From assembly GCA_036872755.1 (NCBI GenBank), contig JAVHNS010000001.1:124001-188000 (forward strand): a DNA stretch of 64,000 nt. Reading direction: 5' to 3'. Both the position numbers and the translations under genes were made by a program. Each line of letters opens with the position of its first letter. Position 1 is the first letter of the stretch. This stretch comes from Orbilia blumenaviensis. Lineage: Eukaryota > Ascomycota > Orbiliomycetes > Orbiliales > Orbiliaceae. Below the pieces are notes generated by a model. That model did no database searches, had not been told where the DNA came from, and was given only the letters and a program-made list of their open reading frames with translations. Of the stretch, positions 26,768 to 64,000 are shown piece by piece.

Positions 26768-29710
26768 ATGTTGTCGTCAACTCTATTTTTGACTGCGCTG
26801 GCTATGCCAGCGGCCTACGCCCAGTCCAATCTTGACTGGGATGCGGCCCACACAAAAGCTTCGACCATGTTGGGTAAACTGACACTGCAACAGAAAATCA
26901 ATATGGTCACTGGTGTGGGTTGGCAGAAAGGTCCTTGTGTCGGAAACATTGCAGCTATCAGCAGCGCTAACTTTCCAGGTAGGTCCCATGTGCATATTTA
27001 AGGCGTATGAACTACACCGTGCTTGTCGCTAATGTCATTTACCAGGACTGTGCCTTCAGGATGGACCTGTGGGAGTTAGATATGCAAGTGGTATCACGGC
27101 TTTCCCAGCAGCCATCCATTTGGTTAGTTAATGACATACTATGACTTCATGTACATCAACACCTTCTGACAGCAAAATATCACAGGGTGCTACATGGGAC
27201 AAAGACCTTATGAGAGCACAAGGAGTTGCCATGGGTGAAGAATTCCGGGGTAAAGGTATCAACATTGCCCTTGCACCAGTATCTGGTGCTTTGGGAAAGA
27301 TTCCACAGGTAAGTTTACCTATATTTGGGGGTTTTGGGTTTTTATTTTAACATTAAATCTTGGGTTAGGCTGGGAGAAACTGGGAAGGCTTTAGCAATGA
27401 CCCATACCTTGCTGGGGCTGGTATGACGGAAGTTATCAGCGGGATGCAGAGCGTCGGCGTTCAGGCTTGTGCCAAGCATTACATCGGCAATGAACAGGAA
27501 AGAAACAGAGAGACTATGAGCAGCAATATCGACGACAGGACCATGCACGAACTGTATCTATGGCCTTTCGCAGACGCTGTAAAGGCAAACGTTGCCACTT
27601 TCATGTGCAGCTACAATAGACTTAACAGCAGCTGGGCCTGCGACAACGACTATGCCTTGAACACCCTTCTAAAGGGGGAACTTGGTAAGTGATTCATTAA
27701 CCCACTTGATGAACCAAGTCTTGGAAATCCAGCTATCTCTAACCAACAAACGCAATTGTAGGTTTCAGAGGACAGGTCCTATCTGACTGGAACGCCAAAA
27801 CATCCACTGGTGGCGCTACTCGTGGCCTCGACATGACCATGCCTGGTGATAACTTCGGAGATAATAACTTTGTCTGGGGGCAGAATCTCCTAAATGCCGT
27901 CAACCAAGGTAGTGTGTCAACTTCCCGCCTAGACGACATGGTAAAGCGTATCTTTGCCTCTTGGTACCTTGTTGGCCAGGACCAGAACTACCCAGCCGTT
28001 AGCTTCAATTCTTGGAACAACAATGGAGGTGGTGATGTCTCAGGCAACCACAAAGTACATGCTAGAACAGTTGCAGGCGATGGTATTGTTTTGTTGAAGA
28101 ACGTAAACAATGCGCTTCCCTTAAAGAATCCAGCATCATTGGCCATTATTGGTAGGGATGCCATCAATAATCCTTCCGGAATTAACGCCTGCACTGATAG
28201 AGCTTGCAACGACGGGACACTCGCAATGGTACGCTAGTCTCACCCTTACAACATTAATCAATTACTAAAGATAGTTCATAGGGATGGGGATCTGGGACTG
28301 CCAACTTCCCTTACTTGATTGACCCCCTCACTGCAATCCGCGCCCAGGCCCAAACCGATGGTACCACTGTCGTCACCTCCACTACAGACAATGCATCCCA
28401 GGGTGCCTCTGCTGCACAGTCTGCTTCTACAGCTATTGTCTTCATTAACGCCAACTCCGGAGAGGGGTATCTCACTGTCCAAGGCCATAATGGAGACAGA
28501 AACAATCTCGACCCATGGAACAACGGTAACGATCTCGTAAAGGCAGTTGCTGCAGTCAACTCCAAGACAATTGTCGTGATTCATTCCGTTGGGCCAATCA
28601 TCATGGAACAGTTTGTTGACCTTCCAAACGTCATTGCTGTCGTTTGGGCTGGTCTTCCCGGGCAAGAGAGTGGAAATGGACTTGTCGATGTTCTTTATGG
28701 CAGCAAGGCCCCAGGCGGAAAACTTCCATTCACCATTGCTAAGACACCATCGGATTACGGTACCAGCGTCGTCAACGGCGATGATAACTTCTCAGAGGGT
28801 CTTTTCATCGACTACCGCCGATTTGACGCTCAAGGAATCACCCCAAGATATGAATTCGGCTTTGGTCTTTGTAAGTGCAGGATCAGCACCTGGAGTTTGT
28901 GTTCATATAAACTAACCGAAAATAGCCTACACTACCTTTTCGTTCACCAACCTTGAGATTTCTTACACCAGCACCACAACTGGGCCAATTTCTTCAACCC
29001 AAAATGCTCCCGGTGGCTACCCGGCTCTCTATGAGCCCGTTGCAACAATCACCGCCCGTGTCACAAACACTGGCGATGTTGCTGGCGCCGAAGTCGCACA
29101 GCTTTACATCGGCCTCCCAGCGGGTTCCCCATCCACACCACCAAAGCAGCTCCGTGGCTTCCAGAAGCTCAAGTTGGCTGCCGGAGCTTCAGGTACTGCC
29201 ACATTCGTTCTTAAGAGGAAGGATCTCGCATACTGGAATACTGCCTCGCAACGTTGGGTCGTCCCTACTGGAAACTTCAACATCTTCATCGGAGCCAGCT
29301 CCCGTGATATCAGACTTCAGGGTACCATGGGACCTAGTGGAAGCACCACAACTACAATCGGCGGCTCTACTTCCACCACAACCGCCCGAACATCCACAAC
29401 TACGCGCGTCACTACTACTCCCTCAACTACTATCACGACTACTCGCACAACTACACCACCCACTACTACAAGAACTACTACCGCAACGACAACGCGCACT
29501 ACCACCGCGATTATTACCACCACAGCACCAACTGGTGGCCCGCTCCAGAGCAAATGGGGACAATGTGGTGGAGTCGGTTATACCGTAAGTTCCAATGCCT
29601 AGAGAATCAGGGAAGACATATACTAACGATAATCATAATAGGGCGCAAGCGTCTGCTCTCCAACTGCTACTTGCTCGACATTGAACCCATACTACGCCCA
29701 ATGTCTGTAG
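26768..29710 (+). CDS. GH3 beta-glucosidase with C-terminal CBM1
   Basis: Secreted beta-glucosidase expected to release glucose from cellobiose and oligosaccharides. Exons: 26768-26978, 27046-27122, 27186-27308, 27369-27684, 27762-28228, 28282-28870, 28926-29584, 29642-29710, giving 836 residues. A signal peptide (1-19, ending AYA) is followed by the GH3 N-terminal domain with [19 protein letters not shown] (Lys-His substrate site) and VLSDWNA, whose Asp251 is the expected nucleophile. The C-terminal GH3 domain (IVLLKN, then [10 protein letters not shown]) leads to a fibronectin-III-like domain ([14 protein letters not shown]). A Thr-rich linker (29338-29540) and a cellulose-binding CBM1 ([14 protein letters not shown]...YYAQCL) end the protein. 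The last intron splits the CBM1. It looks complete and functional, and suited to acting on cellulose surfaces. Confidence 0.95.
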
Positions 29711-37689: not shown

Positions 37690-39675
37690 TCAGAAGAGGG
37701 CAGCGAAAGCAATTGCGACCGCAGCGAATGCTCCCGGTGCGCTGGAGAGCTTGCTTGCGGCACCAGTGTAGGCTGGTGGAGGAGTGTAAGTAACTGATGG
37801 GGCAATGTATGTTGGAGTGGTGGTGGGGGTAGTCTCCTGTGGGACTGGGTATGGGGATGGCTGAGTAACGGTATATGGAACTGGAGATGGGTATGGCTTC
37901 TCCTCAATAACTGTCTTGACGACAGTGTCGATGCTGGTGACAGTGTATCCACGGACGTCAGTGTAGGTGACTGGCTTTTCCTCAGTAACAGTCTTGTAGA
38001 TCTTCTCATAGACTGGGTATGGGGATGGCTGAACGACGGTGTGGACCTTGGTCTCATAGACTGGGTAAGGAGATTGCTCGACAACGGTGTGAACCTTGGT
38101 GTGGTAGACTGGGTAGGGGGTGCTCTCGGTGATAGTGTGGACCTTGGTCTCCACATCAGTGACGGTGTAACCGCGGATGTCGGTGTAAGTGACTGGTGTG
38201 ACTTCTGTAATGGTCTTGCAGATAGTGGTGTAGTCGGTGACGGTGTCAACCTCGGTGACAGTCTTGTAGATCTTCTTGTAGTCGGTGACAGTGGCGGTGT
38301 AGACCTCCTCGACAGTGATGTAAGCTGTCTTGTGGATGTACTTGGTCTTATCCTCAACCTCAGTGATGTAGTGGGTGGCACCTGGAAGAGTGATGGTCTG
38401 GACCTCGTACTTCTTCTTCCAGATAGTGGTTGGGACGTATTCAGTCTTGACATCATATTTGTTCGAGTAGATGGTAGTTCTGGAATAGTTGTTAGCGCTG
38501 CGCAAATAGCCCATTATAGAAAAGTAGCAAACTTACGGGACTGGAACCTCAGTAGTGATGGTCTTAACAACGTTGTTGTAGTCGGTGGTGGTGATAGTCT
38601 TAGTTTCGTAGCAGGTGGTCGTGACTGGCTGGTAGATTGTGGTTGTTCTGTACTTCTTGATATAGACAGTAGTTGGAACAATCTGAGTCTCAGTGCAAGT
38701 AACAGTGGCACCACCCTCAGTGACAGTCTTAACTTCACCGGCCTCAGTAATGGTCTTGACCTCGCCAGCCTCAGTGATAGTCTTAACCTCACCGGCTTCA
38801 GTGACAGTCTTGATTTCACCGGCTTCGGTAATAGTCTTTGTCTTCTTCTTGTAGATTGTCTGGGTTGGGCCGACGATGGAGATGGTTTCTGTGCCACCTG
38901 GAAGAGTGATTGTTTCTCCCGGAAGCTTAACAGTCTCGGTCTCTCCTGGGAGAGTGACAGTTTCTCCTGGAAGCTTAACGGTTTCGGTTCCACCTGGGAG
39001 AGTGACAGTCTCCTCAATTGTTTCCGTGTTAACAAGTGTCTCAGTATTGACAATAGTCTCTGTTGGTCCTGGGATCTTGATAGTCTCTGTGGGTCCGACA
39101 ACAGTCTCTGTTGGTCCTACAACGGTCTCGGTATTGACAATGGTCTCGGTATTGACGATAGTTTCAGTGGGCCCAGGAATCTTGACAGTTTCGGTATTGA
39201 CAATTGTCTCGGTGTTAACGAGTGTTTCAGTATTAACGAGAGTCTCGGTAGGCCCAGGAACCTCGACGGTCTCTGTCGGTCCCGGAACGGTCTCTGTGGC
39301 GGTTTCATAGATGGTGCCTTTTTCACGAGAACATTAGTATATGATGTCAACATCTTTCCTTTGATTAGACCATATATATCAACTTACAATAAGAAACCTC
39401 AACCTTTGTGGAGATGTAAGTCTCAGTAATGGTGGTCGGTTGACCCTCCACGGTTTTAGTGTAACAGCTGGTGGTGGTAATTGTTTTTGTCTCGGTGACC
39501 TATTATTGAAGCTGGGATTAGAATACATATAATATAAAATTTAAAACTACAGAATCAATATACGAACCGGCTGGATGATAGTAGTAGTTATGGTCTTTGG
39601 GTGAGTTGCAGACACATAACCGGCAAGCAGCGGTATGGCCCAGAGGGACCGGACAAGAGAGGATGCGGCAACCAT
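37690..39675 (-). CDS. GPI-anchored Thr-rich mucin-like cell wall protein
   Basis: Exons on the minus strand: 39675-39568, 39499-39388, 39317-38537, 38479-37690, giving 596 residues. A signal peptide (MVAASSLVRSLWAIPLLAG..., cleavage near VSA) leads to a protein dominated by Thr, Val, Glu and Pro. Short repeats include GPTETIVNTET and five TEAGE-type units of nine residues. These are followed by a Tyr-rich section with YPVYETKVHTVV-type repeats and paired RGYTVTDV/RGYTVTSI blocks. The C-terminus GAASKLSSAPGAFAAVAIAFAALF is a good GPI-attachment signal. Expected to be heavily O-mannosylated and covalently linked to the wall; a role in adhesion or wall structure is inferred. The strong codon periodicity produces a 462-codon antisense frame (38041-39429) that is not a gene. 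Confidence 0.85.
38700..38850 (-). repeat. 27-bp in-frame repeats (TEAGE units) in the mucin-like gene
   Basis: Consecutive nine-residue units TEAGE(I/V)KT(V/I) with synonymous differences, ending in TEGGATVT. Part of a wider set of related Thr-Glu-rich units in the same exon. Confidence 0.75.
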
Positions 39676-49736: not shown

Positions 49737-49967
49737 ATGCCATACAAAGGCCATGCTTTCTGGCCACGCGATTCCAGATTCCGTAGGATATTCGACTTGC
49801 CTATTAACTTAGAACGGACCACAAGCCGCTGGTACCGTGCTGTAACCTTCCAGCGAAAACTCGAACGCCGGCACGCCGCTCGGACAGCAGCATTCGAAGC
49901 CCAGGCAACGCATGGAATAAGCTTGGCTAGAAGGATTTCCCTAGCGCAAGATCCAACCAAACAGTAG
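49737..49967 (+). CDS. small protein of the MxC / SxxW / LIxRI family, copy H
   Basis: 76 residues, intronless, no signal peptide, strongly basic. It starts MPYKGHAF, with Tyr where other copies have Cys3. The central block is TTSRWYRAV (Trp32) followed by a charged helix-like stretch (QRKLERRHAARTAAFEA). The C-terminal block is ISLARRISLA (Leu63, Ile67). The middle most resembles the copy at 63535 (IWHHMTRWERRVAARREELEIA). It sits with a broken copy (50040) between the aldehyde dehydrogenase and the NLR. Function unknown; the assignment rests on the three shared blocks and on size, strand and location. Confidence 0.6.
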   Translation: MPYKGHAFWPRDSRFRRIFDLPINLERTTSRWYRAVTFQRKLERRHAARTAAFEAQATHGISLARRISLAQDPTKQ

Positions 49968-50039
49968 CGACCTTTACTACCATCCTAGCTATCGAAAGGA
50001 CTATAAAATGCAAATAAACACCTTATCTGTATCTCTAAA

Positions 50040-50318
50040 ATGGCTTGCGGCCCTTATGGGTTTCCGTCGAAGAATGGGCTCGAGGGCAAAACACGGATTG
50101 CTTTCCGATTCGCTTTCCCTGACTACTTGAGACACAGTCGTTAGGAGGCACAACGTCTACTTTCCCGTCAATGGCAGAAGCATATCACCATGGTAAAACT
50201 GCGGAGAGAACGTAACGAAAGACGTCGCATCATCATGAGACAATCGCTAGGTTCCCATCCAAGTTTGCTACAGAAAATCCAGGAAGCGCAAAGGTTGTGC
50301 AGGAAAGTTCAGGATTAG
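50040..50318 (+). pseudogene. small MxC / SxxW / LIxRI family copy I, interrupted by one TAG
   Basis: Starting ATG-GCT-TGC (Met-Ala-Cys), the frame runs 34 codons (ending YLRHSR), hits TAG at 50142-50144, then continues in the same frame for 57 codons to TAG at 50316. The second part has the family's central block LSRQW (Trp45), a very basic stretch (KLRRERNERRR) and the terminal block PSLLQKIQEAQ. Both blocks lie at family spacing, so this is one ancestral gene with a nonsense change and no frameshift. No splice pair removes the stop. It could also be a stop that is read through, or an assembly error; I give the break only as seen. Confidence 0.6.
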
Positions 50319-51387
50319 TTGCTTGGAGGTCGATACCAGGCAGGTAATACGAGAGTCGAGGGACAAGCTAGGCATATGCAGTCAACAACCACTTGCTTAG
50401 TAAACAGCTCTAATGGGTCGAGTTAATAAAGGTATAAGCTTTGTAGTTATGAAGCTAAAGTCTCGTTTGGATAATCAATAGCTTCATCCTCCCTTTCTTC
50501 CAAGTTCTTTTGCACAGCGCTAGTTCCAGCATCATGGGTTTACATATAAAATCTGGAGGTCAGTGTGAGCGCGGAAGAATATCGGGCTATAATTACATAC
50601 CACTCAAATACTAACTAACCGCAGATGTTAATTTTTGAATTCTGCATGCGCGCTTTGATCGAGTCGGGGTGAATCGATCAATCACTTAGCCTACCCCATA
50701 CTATGTGCATATTCTATCTGACAGCTGCACTCTTAAAAATGGCATGCAAAGGCACCCTGCCTACAAGCGCCCCGGAAAACCGATGAACCTTAATTAGCTT
50801 AACTGCGTAAAGTCTGAAATGAACAGTTAAGTAACCAGATGTGTTAACCAAAAACCACCTACGCCAATTCTAAAACCCAGAGTTATCGAATTTGGAATGC
50901 TGCATCCCGGTCCTTTGTGGAAACTACTGTCTACTAAGTCAGGACCTTACAACCACAATGGCTATAATAGACTGCCGATAACGAGTCAGAGTAAATTGAT
51001 CTCATAGACCGTATTATCTCTTGGCGCTACACCCGCATTATTTTGATCTGCATCGTAGCTTATCACTATCTGGTGTAGATAATCTGTTAAGGCATGCATG
51101 CTCACATTCCCGTCCCTGATCGTCTGCATTGCACCAGTAGCTACACCTGGTATGCATCGTTCAACTGGAGTACCCTAGTTTATGCGTTTTTGTTAAAAAG
51201 CCGACAGCCAATTGAGCCGCGCGGTTATTTTTAGTGTTTCAAACGCTGGGAAGGCTGTTCATTTTAATATAAGATGCAAACGACTACCCCTCACCTGATT
51301 TACCTCGTAACACTATCACTGATTCCCTATTCTTAAAGCGCTACTGTTCGATCTACATAAAGCTTATATATTCTTTCGAAAGCAATT
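50319..51387. other. intergenic region before the NLR
   Basis: No supported gene. A 15-codon frame at 50739 starts Met-Ala-Cys-Lys-Gly like the neighbouring family but stops at once and lacks the other blocks. Confidence 0.35.
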
Positions 51388-54300
51388 ATGGCGCAAGTCC
51401 GTCGGCAAGGAGTCACTCTGCTCTCCGCGGGTGACGGCACTAGTCAGGACGCACATGTTCCGAAGTACGACTTCTAACCATCCTTTACCTCTTGAGTATA
51501 GTGTTCTGACTGCGCGCAGCATTATTTTTGTCCATGGCCTCAGAGGACATCCAAAAACGACATGGTCACATCCAAGGTCCACTTCCACCACTAGTCGCAA
51601 CGGGGAGACTGATGCGAGCACCAAGCGCAAGCCCAATAAACTCAGATCATTTTTTTCTCCAAAGAAAGACGAGAAAAGGGAGAATGGAAAGGTACAAACG
51701 AGCACGTCTACACCTTCGGATATCTTCTGGCCAGAAGAGTACCTTGTGCCCGACCTCCCCGATGCTCTAATATGGACATACGGTTACAACGCAGATGTCA
51801 TTGGTGGCATCTTCCAGGCAAACAACCAGAACAGCGTGTCGCAGCATGGTCGGGACTTTGCCGTCAAACTAGAAAGAGAAATCAATAATGAGGTATTCTA
51901 CTTTAGAACCCTTGATACTTTCATGCGAGCCTAACAACTATATGTACAGGGTCCAATAGTGTTCGTGGCGCATAGTCTTGGTGGGGTCATTGTCAAAGAT
52001 GTAGGATTGTAACTATACCTTTGAAGCGGCCGTCTCTCCTAACGCATCAGCATAGGCACTCCACAGATCAGAAATCATCTGCAAACGAACAAAGTTTATT
52101 ATCTTCCTTGGGACGCCCCATCGAGGAAGCGCATTCGCAGATTGGGCGCAGATTGCATCAAATTTGGCGAGATTAGTGCTGCAAGACTCGAACAAACGGA
52201 TTATACAAGCGCTCGAAGTCAATGGCGAGGTGCTGGATAATATTCACGAGCAGTTCAAAACAATACTCCATGAGAATCGCGCAATTAAAGTTCACTCATT
52301 TCAAGAAGCAATGGCAGTTTCTGGCATAAAAGGGCTGCACGACAAGGTACGGTAATCCGCATATAACTAAATTGTGAAGCTTAAAACATTATAGAAGCTA
52401 ATATGTAGTATAGGTTGTAAACGACTTCTCCTCGAAGCTTGATCTCTCTCGTGAACAAGAAACGGTAGAAAGTATCGACGCGAATCATATGGAGATGGCT
52501 AGGTGTAGTAGTAAAGACGATGAGCGTTACCGCCAGATACATGGGGTTTTAAAGCGTTTTTTAAGGACTGGATTGTTGAAGAGCGACACGAACTTAGTGG
52601 ATGCTAGTCCAACGAGACCAGCCGATGCCGACCTTGCCAACGAAGCATCGCATACTACGAGACTAGTCGATACCACAGATACATCTTGTACGTAATTAAA
52701 CACTCAGATCAATTTATTATGCATTGCGCATTTTGAGGCTTATTTTCCGTTTTATCTAGCATCTAAAAGGCCATTCATGGTTCCCTTCCCTCAGGACGAT
52801 AAATTTATTGGCCGGGAAGATATACTCGATAAGTTAGATCTAGGAGACCGACAAACTGCGCCGATAAAACATAGGAGAGATGCACTAGTTGGTCTCGGGG
52901 GGGTAGGGTATGTTTCCGACCTCGCTTGTTCTCGCAATGGCTAAACGTCTATAGGAAATCTCAAATCGCCATCGAGTATGCGTATCGAGTGCGAGACCAC
53001 AGCCCACAGACGGCAGTGTTCTGGATCCATGCAAGTACAAAGGCCCGTTTCGGGCAAGCGTATCAAGAGATGGCAGAGAAGCTTAAGATTCCCGGGCGAT
53101 CTGATCCGAAAGTTAACATTCTACCTCTGGTGTACGATTGGCTCTCAGGTGAAGCCAGCGGGCGATGGCTTATAATTCTGGACAATGTCGACGACGGCAA
53201 CGTGTTTCTTGAGAAGAATGATGATGCAGAGGCTGTCTCATCACAAGACCAAGCAGTTAGCTCGCAGCCACCACTCGCAAATTTTCTTCCTCACTCGCCA
53301 AATGGCTCAATCCTCATCACATCACGTAATTCGCTCGCAGCTAAGAACCTTGTCGATACATTCGGAGAGTCTATTCAAGTGGAGCCAATGGAAGAGGCGG
53401 ATTCACTAGAAATGTTCAAGACAAAAATTTCAGGAGATGTTTCTTCGGAATCGGACCTGAAGGAGCTGGTTCACCTACTTGAAGGTATTCCGCTAGCAAT
53501 AACACACGCAGCAGCATATATACGGTCAAAGCCGCGGGTTACTGTGTCTACATACCTACGCCTCTTCAAAGAAAGTGAAAATAACCAAGTCAGGCTGCTA
53601 GATTGCAATGAAATGAAAGACCTTCGACGCGATCACAGCATTAGACATGCCGTGGCAAAAACGTGGCAAATCTCGTTCCATCAGATTAAAGAAATGAAGA
53701 CCGAGGCTGCGGACATGCTTGCACTCATGAGCATGTTCAATCGACAGGGTATTCCAGAGAAGCTTCTCATCAAGGACATGGACCAGCTGCAGTTCGAAGA
53801 TGCTATATCGCCACTACTTAATTTTTCGCTGATCCGGGAGCAAGCCGGAGGTAGCATGTTCGAAATGCACCGACTGGTGCAACTGTCGACTAAGACGTGG
53901 CTAGAACAGAATCAAACACTACAGAAGTGGCAGAGTGAGGCGACTGAGATTATAGCAAGCTTATTTCCTAAGGGAAATTACGAGACGTGGTCTGAATGCC
54001 AAGTTCAACTTCCTCACGCGAGCGAAATTATGTTGTTTGGACTTACAGATTCGCAAGATCTACTGAATCTTGCATCGCTCAAAAGTAAACTAGGTTGTTT
54101 TTATATGGAAAAGGGAAATTCCAGAACGGCAGAGACTATGCTTCGAGAAGCAGTAATGATCAGGGAGGAATCGCTTGGGGCTAATCATCTAGATACACTT
54201 AACAGTGTTAGTAACCTTGGGTTGGTGCTAAGAACACAGGGGGAATATAAGAAAGCAGAATTATTACACCGACGAGCACTAAAAGGAAAAGAGCGACAGC

Positions 54301-54920
54301 TTGGAACTGATCATTTAAGTACACTTATTAGTGTCGATAACCTTGGATTAGTGTTAAAAAGACAAGGGAAATACGAGGAAGCAGAATTATTACACCGACG
54401 AGCATTAAAAGGAAAAGAGCGACAGCTTGGAACTGATCATCCAGATACACTTATTAGTGTTAACAACCTTGGATTAGTGCTAGAAAAACAAGGAAAATAC
54501 GAGGAAGCAGAATTATTACACCGACGAGCACTAAAAAGAAAAGAGCGACAGCTTGGAACTGATCATCCAGATACACTTATTAGTGTTGGTAACCTTGGAT
54601 TAGTGTTAAAAAAACAAGGAAAATACGAGGAAGCAGAATTATTACACCGACGAGCATTAAAAGGAAAAGAGCGACAGCTTGGAACTGATCATCCAGATAC
54701 ACTTATTAGTGTTATCAACCTTGGATTAGTGCTAGAAAAACAAGGAAAATACGAGGAAGCAGAATTATTACACCGACGAGCACTAGAAGGAAGGAAGAAA
54801 GTACTTGGGAATAATCACCCATTTACACTTGGTAGCGCCAGAACTCTTGCTTATCTTCTACAGAAGCAAGGGAAATATGAAGAAGCAGAATCATTATTTC
54901 GGGAGCATTCGACGGGATGA
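51388..54920 (+). CDS. NOD-like receptor: SesB-like hydrolase, NB-ARC, TPR repeats
   Basis: Fungal STAND/NLR protein of 1059 residues. Exons: 51388-51464, 51520-51892, 51950-52000, 52056-52346, 52414-52687, 52760-52907, 52955-54920. The N-terminal alpha/beta hydrolase head (about 25-264) has FVHGLRGHPKTTW and the nucleophile elbow VAHSLGG (Ser about 159), then FLGTPHRGS, as in SesB/PGAP1-like domains of fungal NLRs. NB-ARC motifs are the P-loop GLGGVGKS (400-407, split by an intron), Walker B LIILD (477-481), ILITSRN and GIPLAITHAA. From about 790 to the end are six full 42-residue TPR units and a partial one. Known members of this architecture are thought to act in non-self recognition and regulated cell death, with the hydrolase as effector. 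The gene appears intact. Central TPR units are nearly identical in DNA. Confidence 0.9.
54108..54917 (+). repeat. 126-bp tandem TPR-coding repeats
   Basis: Units start at 54108, 54234, 54360, 54486, 54612, 54738 and 54864 (partial). The units at 54360 and 54612 differ at 3 of 126 bases; those at 54486 and 54612 at 7 of 126. Consensus features are KQGKYEEAELLHRRAL and LGTDHPDTLISV-x-NLGLVL. Codon 35 (x) is Ser, Asp, Asn, Gly and Ile in successive units. The outer units (54108, 54738) are clearly more diverged. Confidence 0.92.
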
Positions 54921-56621
54921 AGAAAGAGGTTGAGGCTAGAATAGTAGAGGGAATATAAGGAAAGGCCTCGAACAGTTGGTAAATCGATGAGAATATATAG
55001 TAAAGGAATGAGAAGGAGCCTGGAGCCAAGAACTCGTACACAAATATTGGGTCACATCAAGAGAAGCGCCACTTTCAGTCTCTCTACTTGGTATTTTATA
55101 GAGTATGGACTTATACCAATGGTTTCAAATTAGGGGTTCTGCTAGGAACTCAGCCTTGGTACACGATTGGCCAATCTCATGGCGTGCGTTCTGAAGCTGA
55201 CATTAGCTAGGGCCCATGGGGGAAAGCTAAATTGAGATGGATTATATTTTCGTTTCCCGCAAATCTGCAGTGTGTAATTAGCATTCAAAAATAATATGAT
55301 TATGGTACATTCCTGGCTTCACGCGCGTACGCACTTTGAACTTCAAAAACTTAAGGCTGAACTTGTGGTACCACCGCTCTAGCCATAGTTTTGCCAATAA
55401 ATGTGCCGATCAATTAGAGCCATGTGCTGCCCATTATATATTTCCCTCTTCTGCCCTCTCAGAATCTCTAAAATGGGCAAACTTCCGGGTGAATTCCGAA
55501 ACTCCGCAGTTGGTTTATCGCATTCTACATATGTATAGTCCCCATTATTCTCTTTTTTCTTCTTGTTCAATATCAGGGATAGATCTGGAGGCTTCCATAG
55601 CTTTACGAAGTCAAAACACTAAAACTTCGGTTTCAAACTTATGACAAAATCAGCGCGTACGAATTTGTCTACGGTACGGCGTTGCAAGGTACAAGAAAGA
55701 AACGATTGCCATAGGTATGCAGATAATTCGCCTCGTCTCGTCTCAGCTTATATGCGCTTGGAGTGCTGTAGTCCTCAGTTTTATAACGTTATAATTTCAA
55801 ATATATCTAGAGGCTGACCAACTTAACTCTTAGGGTGCCCCAAATTTCCTGAGGCGACAGATGGACCGAGTAATCCCAAATGAACCATACGATTATCGTA
55901 GATGGGAGATCCGGTCTAAGTCTTTACATGATATCCGGTGCCTTGGACGTCTCTAGTTCGATATATCGCGCTATTTTCCGGGATAATATGATATCTGAAG
56001 CCAGTGGCTGAAGCGAAATCCATAATTTCTCTAGTTTTTGTAATGACTATTCTGTATCCTAGCTTCGGAGCCGTGTAGATCCGCTGACCAGTGGGCTAAC
56101 GGTTAAAAGTCATAAAGATTGGAATCCAGCCCAAATAGGTTCGTAATGGACATTGCCACGTCTGAGTTTGGTGGTGAAAAGGGGGTTAGGTAACATGAAG
56201 TCGAATTTCCAGTATTGCGAACTACTAGTGGCTATGAACTCAATGAGTCCAATCTAACCTTTCCGCTCTCGAATGATATCAAGGAAAAACTTCAGTTTTT
56301 TTAGTTCCAAATATTAGTTAGGGAATATTCAGAGAATGGCTTACATGATGTCAAATCTAATAATAAAATCGTATTTTTCACTAACTCAATTACTCTCACC
56401 AGAGGTGGGTAATCATACTGCTCATATCGAAAATTATTAGGGGACTTCATATATGTGGCACAATATATCATCGGCCCCACTTCGGAATTCTAATTATTGA
56501 GCTACTACGAATCGCGCCCTCGTAACATTATCATTGAGCACACCGAACATGGCTAGGCACAAGCCTTACCTAGGGGCCCGGTACTGATACTGTAGTTTTG
56601 AAGATCTCTGAAAGTAGGTTT
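54921..56621. other. intergenic region downstream of the NLR
   Basis: No supported gene; frames at 55336-55644 and 55379-55570 overlap on opposite strands and have no features. Confidence 0.35.
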
Positions 56622-56735
56622 ATGGGGTGTGAGCATAAGGCAAGTACTGTTAAGTCGCAATTTTCGGATTTCATATTGAAGTCTCAAACCCCGCTCAGCT
56701 GGTATGACTATGTACAGATTGCCTCACGGATGTGA
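56622..56735 (+). pseudogene. possible truncated relative of the MxC / SxxW / LIxRI family
   Basis: A 37-codon frame reads MGCEHKASTVKS... and PLSWYDYVQIASRM before TGA. It combines a Met-x-Cys start, a Lys-Ala-Ser-Thr-Val stretch like the Lys-Ser-Ala-Thr-Val of the copy at 58086, and a Ser-Trp block. The C-terminal block is missing. It lies on the same strand between the NLR and the main array. It could be a decayed copy or chance. Confidence 0.25.
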
Positions 56736-58085
56736 TCCGGAATCGTTTATTATGTCTCGATAAAAGGCGTCAGGACGGAATTCAATAGTCTCCCTAGAGA
56801 TGTCAGGCTTTTTATATAGGCCCACCTAACTCGTCTTGTGCTTTTATTCGCTGCAGATAATGCTTGCAGATGTTCCGTATGCTCAGAGTTTTTATTCCGA
56901 GAAGAAACCAGCGTTTCTGTCTTTATATATAAATGCTCTCTATGTCTGTTTATCCCACCTAGCCCCTTTTCCTGTGAATATACATCATATATATTTTATC
57001 TATGACGAAGAGCTACCGGCTAAGTCTCCGCTGTGGATTAGAAGTGGGTGAAGTGTTATATTTTTCAGATAATGAGATGCCTGCTAGATACCTATTATAC
57101 TGGACTTGAATGAAGGTATACGATCGCCATCCCGAGCTAACGGGATTGCACGTTGGTTGAAAGCACTTCCGTGTATAAGTCTTCTTACACCAGCCGAGTG
57201 GTATCACGGTGGTCGATGGTTTCTTTGGATTAATACTTGTATATAGGTGAAGGACACACGCCAAAGGGCACTCAGACGTTGTTTGTCGCCGAGGACCAGG
57301 TTCCTCTTAAATCTGTTGCATTTAGAGTAAAACTAATGTCAAAGACAAGGTCTACCATCTAGATTAATTAAATTTAGGAGTCTTATCAGCAGCTGGTCGT
57401 ATGAAACGCTTGTGTAGTCTAACGTCAGTCCATCAGAGTCAGATATATGGGCTTGGGCATATATAATATATAGATACGCTTGTTCACCCTATTTTTGAGA
57501 GGTTTCGCGGGTAGTTAGGACGATTCCGTTACCGATTTACTGTGCATGTGCCTTGGACAAGAGATCGGGTAGCCGAGCCCTTTGATCGCCTTTCATTCTC
57601 AGAACCGAAAAATCGAGGCGACAATTTCGATCGTAATCGCCAGCTCTCCTTTGTCGGCTGTCAACTAATCCTATGTTGGCTTCTCTTGAGCCAATCCTCG
57701 ATTCAAACCCCCATCAGAGCATCTAAGAAAAAAAAAATCTTCGACAGAATATCTGTCAGCAGGCAGAATCTTGTCGTACCTCGAGAAAGAATACAACAAG
57801 TATCTGCCTGTGAAATAGAAGGTTGGAATCTCTTCCGCAGATCTGATAGGATTGGGGTATTCGGACGGCAGGTTAGTGGTGTCTCGCTCTGGGACTAAAT
57901 TCTGGTCATATTTTGAACGGTCGGAAAATACATGTATCCAAAGTGAGTAGGTAGCCGCCTCGGCCACGAACAAAACCCCGGTTTCTTTTATTGTCAGAAT
58001 CCAGTCCCGAAACCAAAGCTAAGAACCCTCGGACGACCTAGTATATCTTGGTTTCACAGAGTATAGGCTCTAATATTATCTCACG
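56736..58085. other. intergenic region
   Basis: No supported gene. The 118-codon frame 57542-57898 overlaps a 100-codon minus frame and has no recognisable motif. Confidence 0.35.
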
Positions 58086-58316
58086 ATGCCTTGCAAAGAC
58101 CTCAAATCAGCCACGGTGATGGCGTGGTTAGCCAACAATCCCGGATACGAAAACACACCAGAAAGGATGTCAAGATTCTGGGACACAATTAGACAGATGG
58201 GAACTCAGGGGTTCTTGGGATCAAATTTTCAAACGGGCGGAGGATCGGAACAGCTACCAAGACCCACGTCGACGCCGCTGATAAACAGAATCCATGGGCT
58301 CAATACAACGGCATAG
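58086..58316 (+). CDS. small protein of the MxC / SxxW / LIxRI family, copy A
   Basis: 76 residues, intronless, no signal peptide or membrane segment. The N-terminus is MPCKDLKSATVMAW. The central block is RMSRFWDTIRQMG (Ser29, Trp32). A Gly/Ser-rich linker (about 44-60) precedes the C-terminal block TPLINRIHGLN (Leu65, Arg68, Ile69). First of seven plus-strand copies lying 0.6-1.2 kb apart. I do not recognise the family. The start is chosen because every copy begins within three residues of Cys3. Cytosolic by default; Cys3 next to the start Met could be acylated (inference). Confidence 0.65.
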   Translation: MPCKDLKSATVMAWLANNPGYENTPERMSRFWDTIRQMGTQGFLGSNFQTGGGSEQLPRPTSTPLINRIHGLNTTA

Positions 58317-58791
58317 CTTAATCCTGCTAAAATCATGTCGCTTACACATTGATCCCGAGAAATGCGGCCCCGCAGCCGACGCGAGTCAGTAGCAAAATTC
58401 GGTCAAAGGAGCCCGCCGTTCGACCTAGCCGAGCGCATGGGCTCCTCCTATAAGGTCAGCAAAATCAAATATATGTACTTATATATTATTCAGGATCAGT
58501 ATCGCTTTATGGGTAGATTTAGAGAATATATTACCAATTCTACGAAGCGGAATATTGGGGGTTCTGCCTCGCATAAAAAGAGGCAAACCCCTCCCTTGAG
58601 GCAGAGAACTGAAGCTTGACATTTCGACCGAAGTCACATTGATTTTTAGTTTCAAGATATTTCCTATTAGCCCATGTTGGACCTAGATACTACAACCAAA
58701 CGTGAAAATCAGGCATCTGGTCGGTCGCACGGGTACTTGGTCTATCTTTTATACTGCGTATTCGAAGACAAACCCCCACGGTCTGACCAGA
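58317..58791. other. spacer between array copies A and B
   Basis: A frame at 58362-58619 is open for 85 codons but lacks the family blocks; its first part is Arg-rich. Not supported as a gene. Confidence 0.35.
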
Positions 58792-59085
58792 ATGCCGTGC
58801 GAAAGTTACCACAGCGATCTTATGAATCTTATGGGAGACGAATACACCTATCTTATCTTTAGCTTTCGCTCAAGGCCCATCTCGATGCTTTGGGATCAAC
58901 TATTCAAATACTATCAAGAAGAAATCTTACTCGGAAATGCCGAACATGAATCATTACCCGTTCCAATCGCGTTAAACGCCAAAGACCCCAACAATAGCAC
59001 CTCTTTGATTAATCGAATTCGCGCGCAATCTAAACCTAATAAGAGATTCGGCTTCTGGAGCCGACTCTCGATACCCCGTTTATAA
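58792..59085 (+). CDS. small protein of the MxC / SxxW / LIxRI family, copy B
   Basis: 97 residues. The same frame is open upstream to 58702, but I start at the ATG giving MPCESYHS to match the other copies. A hydrophobic stretch YTYLIFSF (residues 18-25) precedes the central block ISMLWDQLFKYY (Ser31, Trp34, Asp35). The C-terminal block is TSLINRIRAQS (Leu72, Arg75, Ile76), followed by an extra basic tail (NKRFGFWSRLSIPRL) that other copies lack. LINRI is identical to copy A although the rest is not alignable by eye, which supports common descent. Confidence 0.65.
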   Translation: MPCESYHSDLMNLMGDEYTYLIFSFRSRPISMLWDQLFKYYQEEILLGNAEHESLPVPIALNAKDPNNSTSLINRIRAQSKPNKRFGFWSRLSIPRL

Positions 59086-59399
59086 ACCAGCACCAACAGT
59101 ATTATCGAGGTCTGGTACCTTCGGGCCACCTACATCACCCTCGGTTGTTTAAGAGATCCTGTAAAGGGGCATATAGGTCTTACTTTGTCTGTTGTCTCAT
59201 GATTGAAACGGTTTCTCTTATTCTCTGAGCTTATGATCATACTTGATCTGGCGCTGAATCACTGGCAATTAATACACTCTAAAACCACTATATCCGGTAA
59301 TCGGTCAACCTCTAAAGTCAGCACTTTCAACAAACCCCGCCTCTGTTGATAGTATCCAATACCAGAACCAATAAAACGATCGATAAACACCAGAGAACA
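59086..59399. other. spacer between array copies B and C
   Basis: About 310 bp with no gene seen; presumably 3' flank of copy B and promoter of copy C. Confidence 0.4.
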
Positions 59400-59621
59400 A
59401 TGGTTTGCTCCAATACGTACAGCCTAAGGGGGAAACGGGAGGTTGTATTTGTTCTTGGGTTCTCTGGGGACGCTACAGGGAAGGCAATCTCTGGAGCATG
59501 GGATTTACATCATTGGTTCAATCGACTCCTCCGTGTTCATCCCCCAGAAATGTTTCTAGCTGGGTTGGGGGAAGAGGCCGAGATATCATTGATAAGGAAG
59601 ATTCGGGCTCGGAATAATTGA
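59400..59621 (+). CDS. small protein of the MxC / SxxW / LIxRI family, copy C
   Basis: 73 residues starting MVCSNTYS. The frame is also open upstream to 59346, but those 18 codons are Thr/Lys-rich and absent in paralogs. It has a hydrophobic strand REVVFVLGF (13-20), the central block AISGAWDLHHWF (Ser31, Trp34, Asp35) and the terminal block ISLIRKIRARNN (Leu64, Lys67, Ile68), with the stop right after. No signal peptide. This is the shortest copy and the one ending closest to the terminal block. Confidence 0.65.
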   Translation: MVCSNTYSLRGKREVVFVLGFSGDATGKAISGAWDLHHWFNRLLRVHPPEMFLAGLGEEAEISLIRKIRARNN

Positions 59622-59974
59622 AGAATGCTTGTTGTATGGGCCTTAGCCTGTCAAGTGCGATAGCTCGAGGGCATCTAGGTCCATGTGCATGTAAGGTCAT
59701 TATAATCATAATTAACAATTCCAAGGACCGGTGTGCAGTGTATAGCCTGTATGACGACTATTGTTACGGAGTGCATTTCGCATGAGGCACAGGCATAAGT
59801 TCTTCTGAGGTCGTGGTGAGCATGCAGGCCGTGACGTTGGGTGGGTGGTTAGTGCGAGTCGTGCTAACGGTAGTTAGCGGGAGCTCGATCTGGGCATTAA
59901 TCGGATCTAAACACTTAAGTACAACCCACCAAACTGGATCTAGTTACTCACCTGTGCCGTGACCCGAAACAAAA

Positions 59975-60006
<32 letters not shown>

Positions 60007-60555
60007 GAGAAAGAAAGAAAGAGAGAAAAGGAAACCTTTGTAGAACTTGTATATTAATTTGTGGATTAATTAAGCATCTTCGTTCCAGCTAAATATTGTT
60101 ATTCAAATTAATAACGGCTGCTTCAAATCCACAGGGCCTATAACACCTTATGCTATAGCTTATAACCATCTATCTCCAGTTCCCTCCCCCCTTTCAGACC
60201 ACAAACGTATGACCGAAACCTGCGACATAGAAAGGCCATCTCATCAAGCACGACTTCTACCTTCTCACCAAATCCGATATCAAAGCAGCTGGACTAGTCT
60301 ACCGCCGCCGTCATACCTACGAAAACTCGCGTTCGCAAACAAAAGAATCCGGGGACCGACTATAGTATAAACGTCGCAGACTGGCTATAATCAACGCCCT
60401 GACAGAATCGTCGAAAACCGATCCTGTAGAAGGATATGTAAACGCAACGCTTAGCCCTATGCGTCGCGAGACCTAAGCTTCCATCATCATCATCACGAGG
60501 TTCTGGCATTACTCAAACAGCCACGTCTACGCCCACTATAGCTACATCTCATGCA
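59622..60555. other. spacer between array copies C and D
   Basis: Contains the GAAA microsatellite (59971-60030). A frame starting near 60210 (MTETCDIERPS) with SSW and KRIRGP resembles the family loosely but is not secure. Confidence 0.4.
59971..60030 (+). repeat. (GAAA)n microsatellite
   Basis: About 60 bases of GAAA units interrupted by GAGA variants, in the spacer between copies C and D. Such tracts are prone to length change and could serve as breakpoints in the tandem array. Confidence 0.85.
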
Positions 60556-60858
60556 ATGCCATGCAAAAGCACCAAGAACATCGCCGGCATACAGTACACC
60601 ACTCGGATTGTCGAACGCGGTCGCCCTCCCGTTTCTCCAGCGCTACTACGATTGCACTTAGATGTATTTTTCCTGCAGTTCTTCCCGACAGCCCGCAGTT
60701 CCCAAGTATCGCAATTTCAAGAGAAAAATTGGAATAACGGGTGTACGATGATTGGCAGGATTCGGGCGACTCGAAAAAGCGCGACCCGCGATTTAGAGTC
60801 CGCCTCAGCGCTGATATCAAGTCTAGAGGCAATCTTAGTTCTACCAGACCACCGCTAG
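60556..60858 (+). CDS. small protein of the MxC / SxxW / LIxRI family, divergent copy D
   Basis: 100 residues, starting MPCKSTKN. At the position of the central block it reads PPVSPALLRLHLDVFF (Ser27, Leu where Trp is usual). The terminal block is CTMIGRIRATRKS (Ile66, Arg68, Ile69), followed by about 30 further residues rich in Ser and Leu. Two of three blocks are good, the central one weaker. Overlapping frames of similar length exist on both strands (60542-60880 minus, 60741-61148 plus) but show no family features. Confidence 0.5.
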   Translation: MPCKSTKNIAGIQYTTRIVERGRPPVSPALLRLHLDVFFLQFFPTARSSQVSQFQEKNWNNGCTMIGRIRATRKSATRDLESASALISSLEAILVLPDHR

Positions 60859-61251
60859 TCTCTCGGCATACCGTCGCCAAACAAATTGTATCCAGCCTGC
60901 CCTATTCCTGCAAACGGTACACTCCGCGAGTCAACAAGTCACCTGTACACAAACACAAACGACTCCAAACACTCGTCCTTGTAGCTCGACAAAAGCTTCG
61001 AGGGCTTAACCTCAAAAAGGCAACACCTCGACAGGATCTAGCTAGGAAGCTCCAAAGCATTGCTGCATTATGTTTCTGCATCATATACGTGGCATTACAT
61101 AATTCGGATCGAGACATCGAAAACGGCATTTACTCCCAAATAGACTAGAGCGATCGAGCAGGGTCTACCCCGAACGGCACTGGCCAGCATTCAGATCGAT
61201 ATACCCCAGTCGTTATGCTTTCATCGATACAAGAAAGCCTCGAACGCAAAA
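60859..61251. other. spacer between array copies D and E
   Basis: Overlapped by a basic 135-codon plus frame (60741-61148) and a minus frame (60902-61129). Neither has recognisable features and I leave both out. Confidence 0.35.
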
Positions 61252-61488
61252 ATGCCCTGCGGAGGGGCATTTCACCACAACATCCTCGAAGATGTTTTCA
61301 AGTACGGGAAGATAAGGCCGCAATATTTGTCTATAACCTTAGATCGAATTGTACGTCGGTACATCAGGCTTAGCCGGATGGGAGCTGAAGGAGCTGGTTT
61401 CGAGGGGTTGCAACTGAGGCCCCATGACGAATCGAATCTTTCATCATGGCGGCGGATTCGGATCGCAAACAACGACCCTAGGCTGTAA
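61252..61488 (+). CDS. small protein of the MxC / SxxW / LIxRI family, divergent copy E
   Basis: 78 residues starting MPCGGAFHHNILEDVFKYG, which parallels copy G (MTCKGIHNAVIMEKSILWYG) in the spacing of Gly, His-Asn and Tyr-Gly. The central block is YLSITLDRIVRRY (Ser27, Leu30 in the Trp position, Asp31). The terminal block is SSWRRIRIANN (Arg68, Ile69), with Trp-Arg where Leu-Ile is usual. Membership is probable from the N-terminus, length, strand and place in the array; the terminal blocks alone would not prove it. Confidence 0.5.
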   Translation: MPCGGAFHHNILEDVFKYGKIRPQYLSITLDRIVRRYIRLSRMGAEGAGFEGLQLRPHDESNLSSWRRIRIANNDPRL

Positions 61489-62347
61489 TCCAAAGGCCTC
61501 ATAGACATTGAACCGCCTTACCCTGGTCAATCTACGAATCGACATGGAACATTACACCTCGTCCGAAGTCAATCTCAGCCGGCGCCCCACAGATCCAAAC
61601 TGTCGTCAATGGTTGTAGCAGTACAAAACACCGCAAACCAGGGACCTCAGGAGCAAGACACCTTGACAAATTCCCCCATTCCCATCCAACCGCCTTCTTG
61701 GACATTTAGATTTTTGGTACTCTTGCGCTGGAACTCACATGCAATATTCCGGTGCAACACCTCTGAATTCATCCGAAATGGGCTTGTAAAGCAAGCCTTT
61801 GTTGCAAGAAAATTTTTTTTTTCGCAAAAACGCCAGAACCGACGGCAGGCCATGAAATCCATAACAAAACGGTATTTTATACTAGACAGGATGCCCCACC
61901 GCTCGTGGCTTTTGCGGCAGGATGGGACTCTTTTTGTAGAAAAACACCGCAAGATGGCTTGAAGTGCACAAGTGTGAAGTCCAAGAAATAACGGTTTGCA
62001 AGGGATAGGTGAAATACCCTTGATGGAAAATGTTCCAGCACAGACCGTCGACCTAAAAGATGACCGTACGAGGAAAGTTAAAACTTCTAGAAAAGAACAG
62101 TGGCGTGACACGTTTTGAACACTTGAGAACATATTTAAGTATCTGGAAATATACAACTTGTAGTTTTTTGAAAATTATTCCCCCAAGGCTCTAAAGAAAC
62201 CCTCCTGAAGAAAACACTCCCTTTGCTGTTACGTTTTATATTTCCAATTTTCTCTTCCGTTTGCCCCCCTTAGAAAGAAGGAAAGAGAGAAAAAAATCGG
62301 CGTCAAACATCACACACAACTCAAAGAAGAAAATTCCGACCGGAAAA
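61489..62347. other. spacer between array copies E and F
   Basis: A 117-codon plus frame (61609-61962) overlaps a 169-codon minus frame (61647-62156); neither shows a domain. The last 100 bp before 62348 are CT- then A-rich, consistent with a promoter and leader. Confidence 0.35.
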
Positions 62348-62587
62348 ATGACTTGCGCGAAAGCCTACCACAACATTGCAATGAATTGCATGACCAGCAT
62401 ATACACAAACGCCGATGCGAAGGTTCCGCCCAAGGAAGTCTCCGAAACGTGGAATTGCTTCGTTAAAGAACACCGTTGTGCCATTTCAAGACGAGATTGG
62501 AAAGCCTTCGTCGATCTTCGAGCCAGAGAATCTCACAGCATCGGAGTCCCACTGCTGGAGCGAATCCAGGCCAGCCAAAGGCAGTAG
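62348..62587 (+). CDS. small protein of the MxC / SxxW / LIxRI family, copy F
   Basis: 79 residues starting MTCAKAYHNIAM in a good start context (AAAAATGA). The frame is open to 62261 but the extra 29 codons are Lys/Ser-rich leader-like sequence. The central block is KEVSETWNCFVKEH (Ser32, Trp35, Asn36). A basic stretch (RRDWKAFVDLRARE) precedes the terminal block VPLLERIQASQRQ (Leu69, Arg72, Ile73) and the stop. Three Cys besides Cys3, but no secretion signal, so disulfides are not expected. Confidence 0.65.
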   Translation: MTCAKAYHNIAMNCMTSIYTNADAKVPPKEVSETWNCFVKEHRCAISRRDWKAFVDLRARESHSIGVPLLERIQASQRQ

Positions 62588-63534
62588 ATGGGAGGGTTTT
62601 CTTTCAGGGTCATGACCGAGAATTTCGAGCCTCGATTCTAGGTTACGGGAATCTTTTCATTCATTTTGTATCTTTTCTTTCTGTAAATAGACCGATTCCT
62701 TGGGCCTCATCCGCCATTCATCCTTCTGGGACATCCTTATACCCGACAGATGTCCTCGATATTGGGCCGAAGCAAGGCACCAGAACAACTGTCTCCCGAA
62801 AAAAATTCTTTAGCATAGCACCGGCGTACCTTTTTCATTAGAAGGATTCGGGTGCATTTGGGAGTTATTACTGGTGTATTGGTTTACTACAAATAATAAT
62901 AATATTTTTTTCTGTCTTCATTTAACATTTGTGAATGTGAAGTTCCATTTCCGCCTATATTATCTTTGAAAATACAACTCACATGCATAAAACGGAATAT
63001 TGCCACTCCTGGCGCACCTCGGGTATTTGAAACATGGCCACACTTCACTAATTAGTTCACAGGCTTGCAGGCTAGTTATGAGGAAAGGGTAGCACGAACG
63101 GATAGCAAGTTCGCTCGTGTGCTCCTTAACCCAAGGGAGTTCGTTCTAGCGTTATATTGCTATGATCTAGTATGTCGCCATATGCATGGCTGCAGTTCAG
63201 ATATTTTGACATCGGAAATTTAAAATTGTTGCAATCGCAATACCGTTGGCCCGTGTTTATTATTTATAGTCTTCTCGGGCACCAGGGATTTCTCGAGTCC
63301 ATCCGGGCCAAGGAGCCGGCTGGGCCAATGAATTAAAAAGCGGCTTCATGGGTCAGTCCTTTTGTGAATACCAGTTTGTTGCCGCGCCGGACACAAGCCA
63401 AGGCTATATCAAGGGTATTATTATAATAATCCAATAGCACCTTCTGAAGTTTCGACGTTTTCATTAATTCGTAGACTGGGCTAGACAACCTGATCGCAAC
63501 AATCTAAGCAGGACAAATCCCACCCCTCGATAAT
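62588..63534. other. spacer between array copies F and G
   Basis: About 950 bp without a supported gene. A frame reading from 62476 overlaps the end of copy F and is a shadow. Confidence 0.4.
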
Positions 63535-63792
63535 ATGACTTGCAAAGGCATTCACAACGCTGTCATCATGGAAAAGTCCATCCTTTGGTACGGTCCGAAT
63601 TATGTCCACGAACTTGATAGCGAATCCGTTGGCGACATCTGGCACCATATGACACGTTGGGAGCGCCGTGTGGCGGCAAGAAGGGAAGAACTCGAGATAG
63701 CTCGAACACAACGGGATGGTTTCCAACCTCTCGAATTTGAGAAGACTAAAGTCCCACTGATAATCAGAATCAAGGGATCAAATTCAACATAA
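63535..63792 (+). CDS. small protein of the MxC / SxxW / LIxRI family, copy G
   Basis: 85 residues starting MTCKGIHNAVIMEKS, with WYGPNY at 18-23. The central block is ESVGDIWHHMTRW (Gly33 in the Ser position, Trp36). A long charged helix-like stretch ERRVAARREELEIARTQRD follows; copy H has a matching one. The terminal block is VPLIIRIKGSNST (Leu75, Arg78, Ile79), stopping right after, as in copies C and F. No signal peptide. Last complete copy in the window; more may follow beyond the right edge. Confidence 0.65.
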   Translation: MTCKGIHNAVIMEKSILWYGPNYVHELDSESVGDIWHHMTRWERRVAARREELEIARTQRDGFQPLEFEKTKVPLIIRIKGSNST

Positions 63793-63969
63793 GGACGTCG
63801 CTCACATAAACCCGAACCGCCTGGCTGGCTTTCCGGCTTCGCAGGCGCTGGCTGGCCGCGTAAATTATACACAAACATGAGATTTATATACCTCATCCTC
63901 CTATAATCTCAACATTTATTGGCACACCCATTTCCACCAACTGCAAATCCCTCCAAAGCCGCCGATATA

Positions 63970-64000
63970 ATGTGGTTGTCTACGCTCTTGGGACCATGGG
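63970..64000 (+). CDS. possible start of a further gene, 3' partial
   Basis: Ten codons, MWLSTLLGPW, are open to the window edge after a leader-like CA/CT-rich stretch. The hydrophobic start could be a signal peptide. Too short to support more. Confidence 0.2.
   Translation, partial: MWLSTLLGPW

Follow-up and report, generated by a model that had tools for sequence, protein, structure and literature searches.

Do seven short, highly diverged open reading frames lying one behind another in a fungal chromosome constitute a gene family, and is such a family at present expanding under pressure to diversify? This question was raised by a 64,000-nucleotide stretch of the Orbilia blumenaviensis genome (assembly GCA_036872755.1, contig JAVHNS010000001.1, positions 124,001 to 188,000 of the forward strand; the whole stretch is hereafter called the window, and positions refer to it unless the contig is named). 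An original prediction, made from the sequence, had proposed a tandem array of seven paralogs expanding under strong diversifying pressure. Our analysis indicated a real, likely old and apparently undescribed family of small proteins that is ordinary in kind, namely a lineage-specific tandem orphan family. The array exceeds the predicted size: all seven frames stood, two upstream copies at 49737 and 50040 had been overlooked, and in total eight intact frames and one frame broken by a stop codon extend over positions 49737–63792 (~14 kb; Table 1).

On re-reading, the seven plus-strand frames were located as predicted, each with an ATG start, 73–100 codons and a stop codon at its end, at start-to-start distances of 608–1187 bases. 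All seven started with M-[P/T/V]-C, and their C-terminal blocks matched those originally listed. The central block, hydrophobic-[S/G]-x-x-W-[D/N/H], was found in five of the seven (58086, 58792, 59400, 62348 and 63535), with Leu in the Trp position in 60556 and 61252, as had been claimed; its position required correction, as the Trp was located at residues 33–36 and the block begins a few residues before the predicted residue 32. Read by eye, the N-termini were charged or polar without a hydrophobic run, and no introns were apparent in the seven frames. Chance occurrence was assessed with 300 first-order Markov sequences of the same dinucleotide make-up (model built on positions 58001–64000), in which frames of 60–130 codons with an M[PTV]C start were counted. 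Such frames occurred 0.05 times per 6 kb in the Markov sequences vs. 7 observed, and none of the 300 sequences yielded a frame with the strict or the looser motif, compared to 5 and 6 observed, respectively. Because the motif had been defined on the same sequences, profile tests were added. Leave-one-out profiles, scored against 2797 open frames from 264 kb, recovered 58086 (expectation value (E) 2.1e-4), 58792 (9.3e-4), 62348 (2.5e-6) and 63535 (2.2e-5).

A second profile, built from these four lines (c1, c2, c6 and c7 plus eight homologs; hereafter the four-line profile), was applied to 512 M-x-[C/Y] starts, any stop codon being treated as X. Five of the starts were training sequences (the four copies themselves plus a start internal to 62348), leaving 507, among which the four highest ranks were taken by 60556, 61252, 59400 and 49737 (E 0.08, 0.18, 1.2 and 1.7, respectively). 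The broken copy 50040 ranked eighth (E 6.7), and the fragment at 50739 ranked only 161st. These E-values are individually weak; what gives them strength is that every one of the frames falls within a single 14-kb stretch and on one strand. Copy 8 could be aligned with c7 across a W...ERR.AAR stretch. The M-[small]-C start was shared by the seven reported copies and c9, with Tyr replacing Cys in c8. Cys occupied residue 3 in both c9 and the 50739 fragment, and residue 2 was P, T, V or A in all ten starts, including those of c9 and the 15-codon fragment. A GAAA microsatellite of 16 copies (59966–60028) was present between copies 3 and 4.

Table 1. Copies of the family, possible fragments and the neighbouring receptor-like gene in the window.
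Feature	Positions	Strand	Description
Copy 1 (c1)	58086..58316	+	76 aa, MPCK...MSRFWD...PLINRI
Copy 2 (c2)	58792..59085	+	97 aa, MPCESYH...ISMLWD...SLINRIRA, then tail with FWSRLS
Copy 3 (c3)	59400..59621	+	73 aa, MVC...ISGAWD...SLIRKIRA
Copy 4 (c4)	60556..60858	+	100 aa, MPCK...VSPALL...TMIGRIRA
Copy 5 (c5)	61252..61488	+	78 aa, MPCGG...LSITLD...SSWRRIRI
Copy 6 (c6)	62348..62587	+	79 aa, MTCAKAYHN...VSETWN...PLLERIQA; most conserved copy
Copy 7 (c7)	63535..63792	+	85 aa, MTCKGIH...VGDIWHHMTRWERRVAARR...PLIIRIKG
Copy 8 (c8)	49737..49967	+	Intact, 76 aa, MPYKG...TSRW...SLARRI; Tyr replaces Cys
Copy 9 (c9)	50040..50318	+	Broken: MAC..., in-frame TAG 50142-50144, then same-frame ...LSRQW...SLLQKIQEAQ
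Possible start fragment	50739..50786	+	15 codons, MACKGT...; weak, no profile support
Possible C-terminal fragment	57987..58022	+	FIVRIQSRNQS + stop; motif match alone, weak
NLR-like gene (neighbour, not family member)	51323..54920	+	Between copies 8/9 and copies 1-7

No additional member was found within ~80 kb downstream or 170 kb upstream of the array (contig positions 4001–268000). Since the contig opens with CCCTAA telomere-type repeats (its positions 1–200), the array lies ~174–188 kb from an apparent chromosome end. Genome searches with single proteins (c1, c2, c6, c7 and c8), which are of low sensitivity, returned self matches and one match to c7 on contig C15 (E 0.37) that was absent from the family-profile results at E 1 or better. 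A DNA pattern for the C-terminal block, capturing only the LIxRI-[R/K/H/Q/N/S]-[G/A] kind of copy, occurred at 74 places in the genome, equal to its reversed control (74), with three of them inside the array. The predicted tandem arrangement was borne out, as 70 of the 71 places outside the array were inspected and held no family-like frame; M-x-C occurred in the motif frame at two of them, neither in the family layout. Scoring the family profile on all frames of these 70 stretches gave a single match (E 0.66), and the remaining place, at contig position 250689, is located in a stretch already scanned with the profile.

Counterparts in other species were sought by a profile search of a database with 5.8 billion proteins, which covered copies 1–7, with c8 and c9 outside it. 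Matches came from Arthrobotrys megalospora, Orbilia oligospora, A. flagrans and two further sources, in addition to the window's own copy 7. Four copies (58086, 58792, 62348 and 63535) had counterparts, at 53–94% identity: P0005 for c1 (60%), P0003 and P0004 for c2 (53 and 54%), P0001 and P0002 for c6 (94 and 88%), and P0007–P0010 for c7 (66–67%). The c2 line carried an extra tail, W-[K/S]-R-[L/F]-S, in all three of its sequences. All named homologs belong to Arthrobotrys or Orbilia, in agreement with the predicted lineage restriction; the taxonomy of A. megalospora and O. oligospora is Orbiliomycetes, Orbiliaceae. The search requires shared five-residue words and may therefore overlook remote relatives from other classes. 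No relative was found in viral contigs (c7 as query) or in bacterial and archaeal contigs (c6 as query).

Among the proteins that correspond directly to copies 2, 6 and 7 were TWF281_000048 and TWF281_000050 (A. megalospora), TWF192_003724, TWF217_004280, EYR41_002554 and TWF191_010172 (O. oligospora), and DFL_008047 (A. flagrans), with 53–88% identity between these named-tag proteins and the copies. In contrast to the array, each is recorded on its own as a hypothetical or uncharacterised protein, and in some the ends extend further, perhaps owing to gene-model errors. TWF281_000048 and TWF281_000050 are located on the same contig and match c2 (53%) and c6 (88%), respectively; the same copy order in A. 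megalospora would fit, as judged from the tag numbers. Six counterpart locus tags had no mention in the literature searched, and the family was undescribed in the literature on Arthrobotrys and Orbilia gene families that was covered, most subscription papers, preprints and supplementary files being outside that coverage.

The history of the copies was examined in a tree, in which the solid copies grouped with their own counterparts (ultrafast bootstrap/SH-like approximate likelihood ratio test): c1 with P0005 (98/98), c6 with P0001 and P0002 (97/98), c7 with P0007–P0010 (82/98), and c2 (with c3) with P0003 and P0004 (90/96). The same four groups were obtained, with support of 96/91, 96/94, 84/87 and 84/86, after removal of c3, c4, c5, c8 and P0008. 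Because the solid copies grouped with their counterparts and not with each other, the duplications are likely older than the separation of these species. The placement of c3, c4, c5 and c8, including that of c3 beside c2, is unsure since their branches are very long. No DNA similarity was detected between the units beyond overlaps created by the way the unit borders were drawn and two 19-base chance matches (E 0.066–0.078). Constraint appeared very unequal among the copies, because against the same species, A. megalospora, c6 was 88% identical vs. 53% for c2. Repeat-induced point mutation (RIP) was considered as a present cause of the divergence and dropped, as the main array was without the composite signature: the composite RIP index exceeded 0 in none of its 10 one-kb windows vs. 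49 of 527 in the region. The TpA/ApT index was elevated at the upstream copies (0.95–1.02).

The predicted present expansion under strong diversifying pressure was not upheld, given the grouping of the solid copies with counterparts and the absence of residual DNA similarity from one unit to the next; 62348 was 88–94% identical to its counterparts, and one copy is broken. Unequal constraint together with a broken copy would fit birth-and-death evolution and not a uniform strong diversifying pressure.

AlphaFold models of c6 and c7, based on shallow alignments, were wholly helical, with helices at residues 3–23, 28–45, 48–62 and 69–78 in c6 and at 4–17, 29–61 and 75–84 in c7. In both models the Trp was located within the second helix, and the short last helix opened with the LIxRI block. 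The eight intact copies had predicted isoelectric points of 7.9–11.7, and Cys content ranged from 0 to 4 across the copies, with a single Cys in most. Nothing exceeded the curated Pfam cut-offs among the 12 and 17 members tested, the best matches being FERM_F1 (E 0.11; 13 bits vs. a cut-off of 26.1) and BRK (E 0.16). An F-box, prompted by the S-x-x-W block, was dropped, as the same sets gave no Pfam F-box match up to E 10. Sequence search of the PDB returned nothing better than E 0.69 and 0.95, and the best Foldseek hits of the two models against the PDB (E 5.6 and 2.0) were counted as no match. Shared upstream promoter words were likewise discarded: the best 7-mer occurred in three of eight upstream regions, a count that was equalled or exceeded in 195 of 200 randomised sets.

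We regard the chances as about even that the array represents an old, likely Orbiliomycete-only family in birth-and-death evolution, with products predicted to be small intracellular helical adaptors. Tandem duplication would have preceded the species split, after which 62348 would have stayed constrained, 58792 drifted faster and 50040 entered decay, with the paralogs presumably being kept for distinct jobs. A small residue at position 2 leads to the expected removal of the start Met. Since residue 2 is small in every listed start, such removal is expected here and would leave the Cys as second residue, a putative lipidation or metal-binding site. The protein body may consist of an N-terminal helix and the Trp-bearing helix, and the C-terminal PLIxRI helix could be a docking piece common to the copies. 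Because the ends are conserved and the middle is variable, a shared docking helix with a copy-specific body is suggested, in which the middle would provide each copy with its own partner or site.

Several observations weigh against this interpretation. Leave-one-out profiles missed 59400 (E 6.1), 60556 (0.57) and 61252 (27), the protein database search returned no counterpart for these three copies, and c8 and c9 ranked high in the four-line profile alone, at E 1.7 and 6.7. Tree support was good for the c1 and c6 groups and moderate for those of c2 and c7. Codon usage failed to set the frames apart from 356 others (60–110 codons) in the region, with percentiles of 0.32–0.89 for the eight intact copies, the training set being small and probably containing antisense frames. 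Coding status would be argued from protein conservation across species, conservation likewise being what points to a putative adaptor role and to docking by PLIxRI. The two structural models were of low confidence (mean predicted local distance difference test 64.6 and 65.0; predicted template modelling score 0.27 and 0.36). Alternatively, only the four counterpart-bearing copies would be genes, and 59400, 60556, 61252, 49737 and 50040 would be dead or chance frames, a reading that we consider rather unlikely. These five either fail the leave-one-out test or score only E 0.08–6.7, very long branches were found for c3, c4, c5 and c8 (c9 was not included in the tree), and 50040 is interrupted by an in-frame stop. 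However, four of the five were the top four of 507 starts for a profile built without them, on the same strand and in the array, and open frames of 73–100 codons persist in four of the five.

The array encloses a gene resembling NOD-like receptors (NLR-like gene). Pfam tetratricopeptide repeat (TPR) families and DUF7779 were matched in its 52875–54917 part, whereas positions 51401–51934 had no Pfam match and neither NB-ARC nor a hydrolase family was among the matches listed; its NB-ARC-like and hydrolase-like parts were read by eye. A TPR-coding tandem repeat at the end of the gene (54173–54896; 126 bases, 4.9 copies, ~90% DNA matches) is suggestive of recent repeat turnover. Highly alike TPR units are known from fungal recognition genes. 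The gene is surrounded by the copies and shares their strand; this location and the resemblance of its closely similar units to such recognition genes would agree with a cluster for allorecognition or cell death, the small proteins being partners whose variation is read by the receptor. We consider this improbable, as none of nine plus-strand LIxRI-type matches in 49–64 kb was located in the receptor (51.3–55.0 kb), no relative of c1, c2, c6, c7 or c8 appeared in the low-sensitivity single-protein search on C2 and C3, which carry the two other DUF7779 places in the genome, and the cross-species conservation of 62348 does not match allele-like variation. A more elaborate arrangement, with up to ten ancient, non-interchangeable paralogs bearing one small C-terminal docking helix for a single cellular hub, and with that hub guarded by the immune-type receptor inside the cluster, appears about equally doubtful.

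A similarly slight probability is assigned to the copies being predation effectors exported independently of a signal peptide and diverging through host pressure or RIP. PMC3828140 proposes that the small secreted proteins expressed by nematode-trapping fungi during infection were duplicated in tandem and then diverged through RIP, and those orphan proteins are likewise small, class-restricted, tandem and highly diverged. However, they are secreted, with one cluster shown to have 12 conserved Cys, whereas the array copies have 0–4, most of them one, unlike Cys-rich secreted effectors. A signal-peptide-like start was not apparent by eye in the array copies, and the main array was without the composite RIP signature, though the TpA/ApT index was raised at the upstream copies.

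Elsewhere in the window, a large frame (19806–22955) contained three WSC-domain stretches with Thr/Ser-rich linkers built from 12-base repeats. By eye, frames at 27743–29602 resembled a glycoside hydrolase family 3 enzyme, behind which came a linker rich in Thr and a CBM1-like start. Two adjoining frames on the minus strand (37690–39333), with a high content of T, E and V, carried tandem repeats of 18–48 bases and were accompanied by long open antisense frames. Scanning the window for Rfam families and tRNAs returned nothing.

According to PMC3828140, ~20% of the genes of two nematode-trapping fungi were common only to both and up to 16% were unique to one, more than 70% of the species-unique genes being orphans. 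The array offers a clear example of such class-restricted orphan genes, for which the databases searched hold only single hypothetical proteins. The interest of the family lies in its age, its unequal constraint and its NLR-like neighbour. Because a nearly frozen, a drifting and a broken copy occur together within 14 kb, the array provides a compact test of whether tandem orphan paralogs persist because of separate functions or merely decay.

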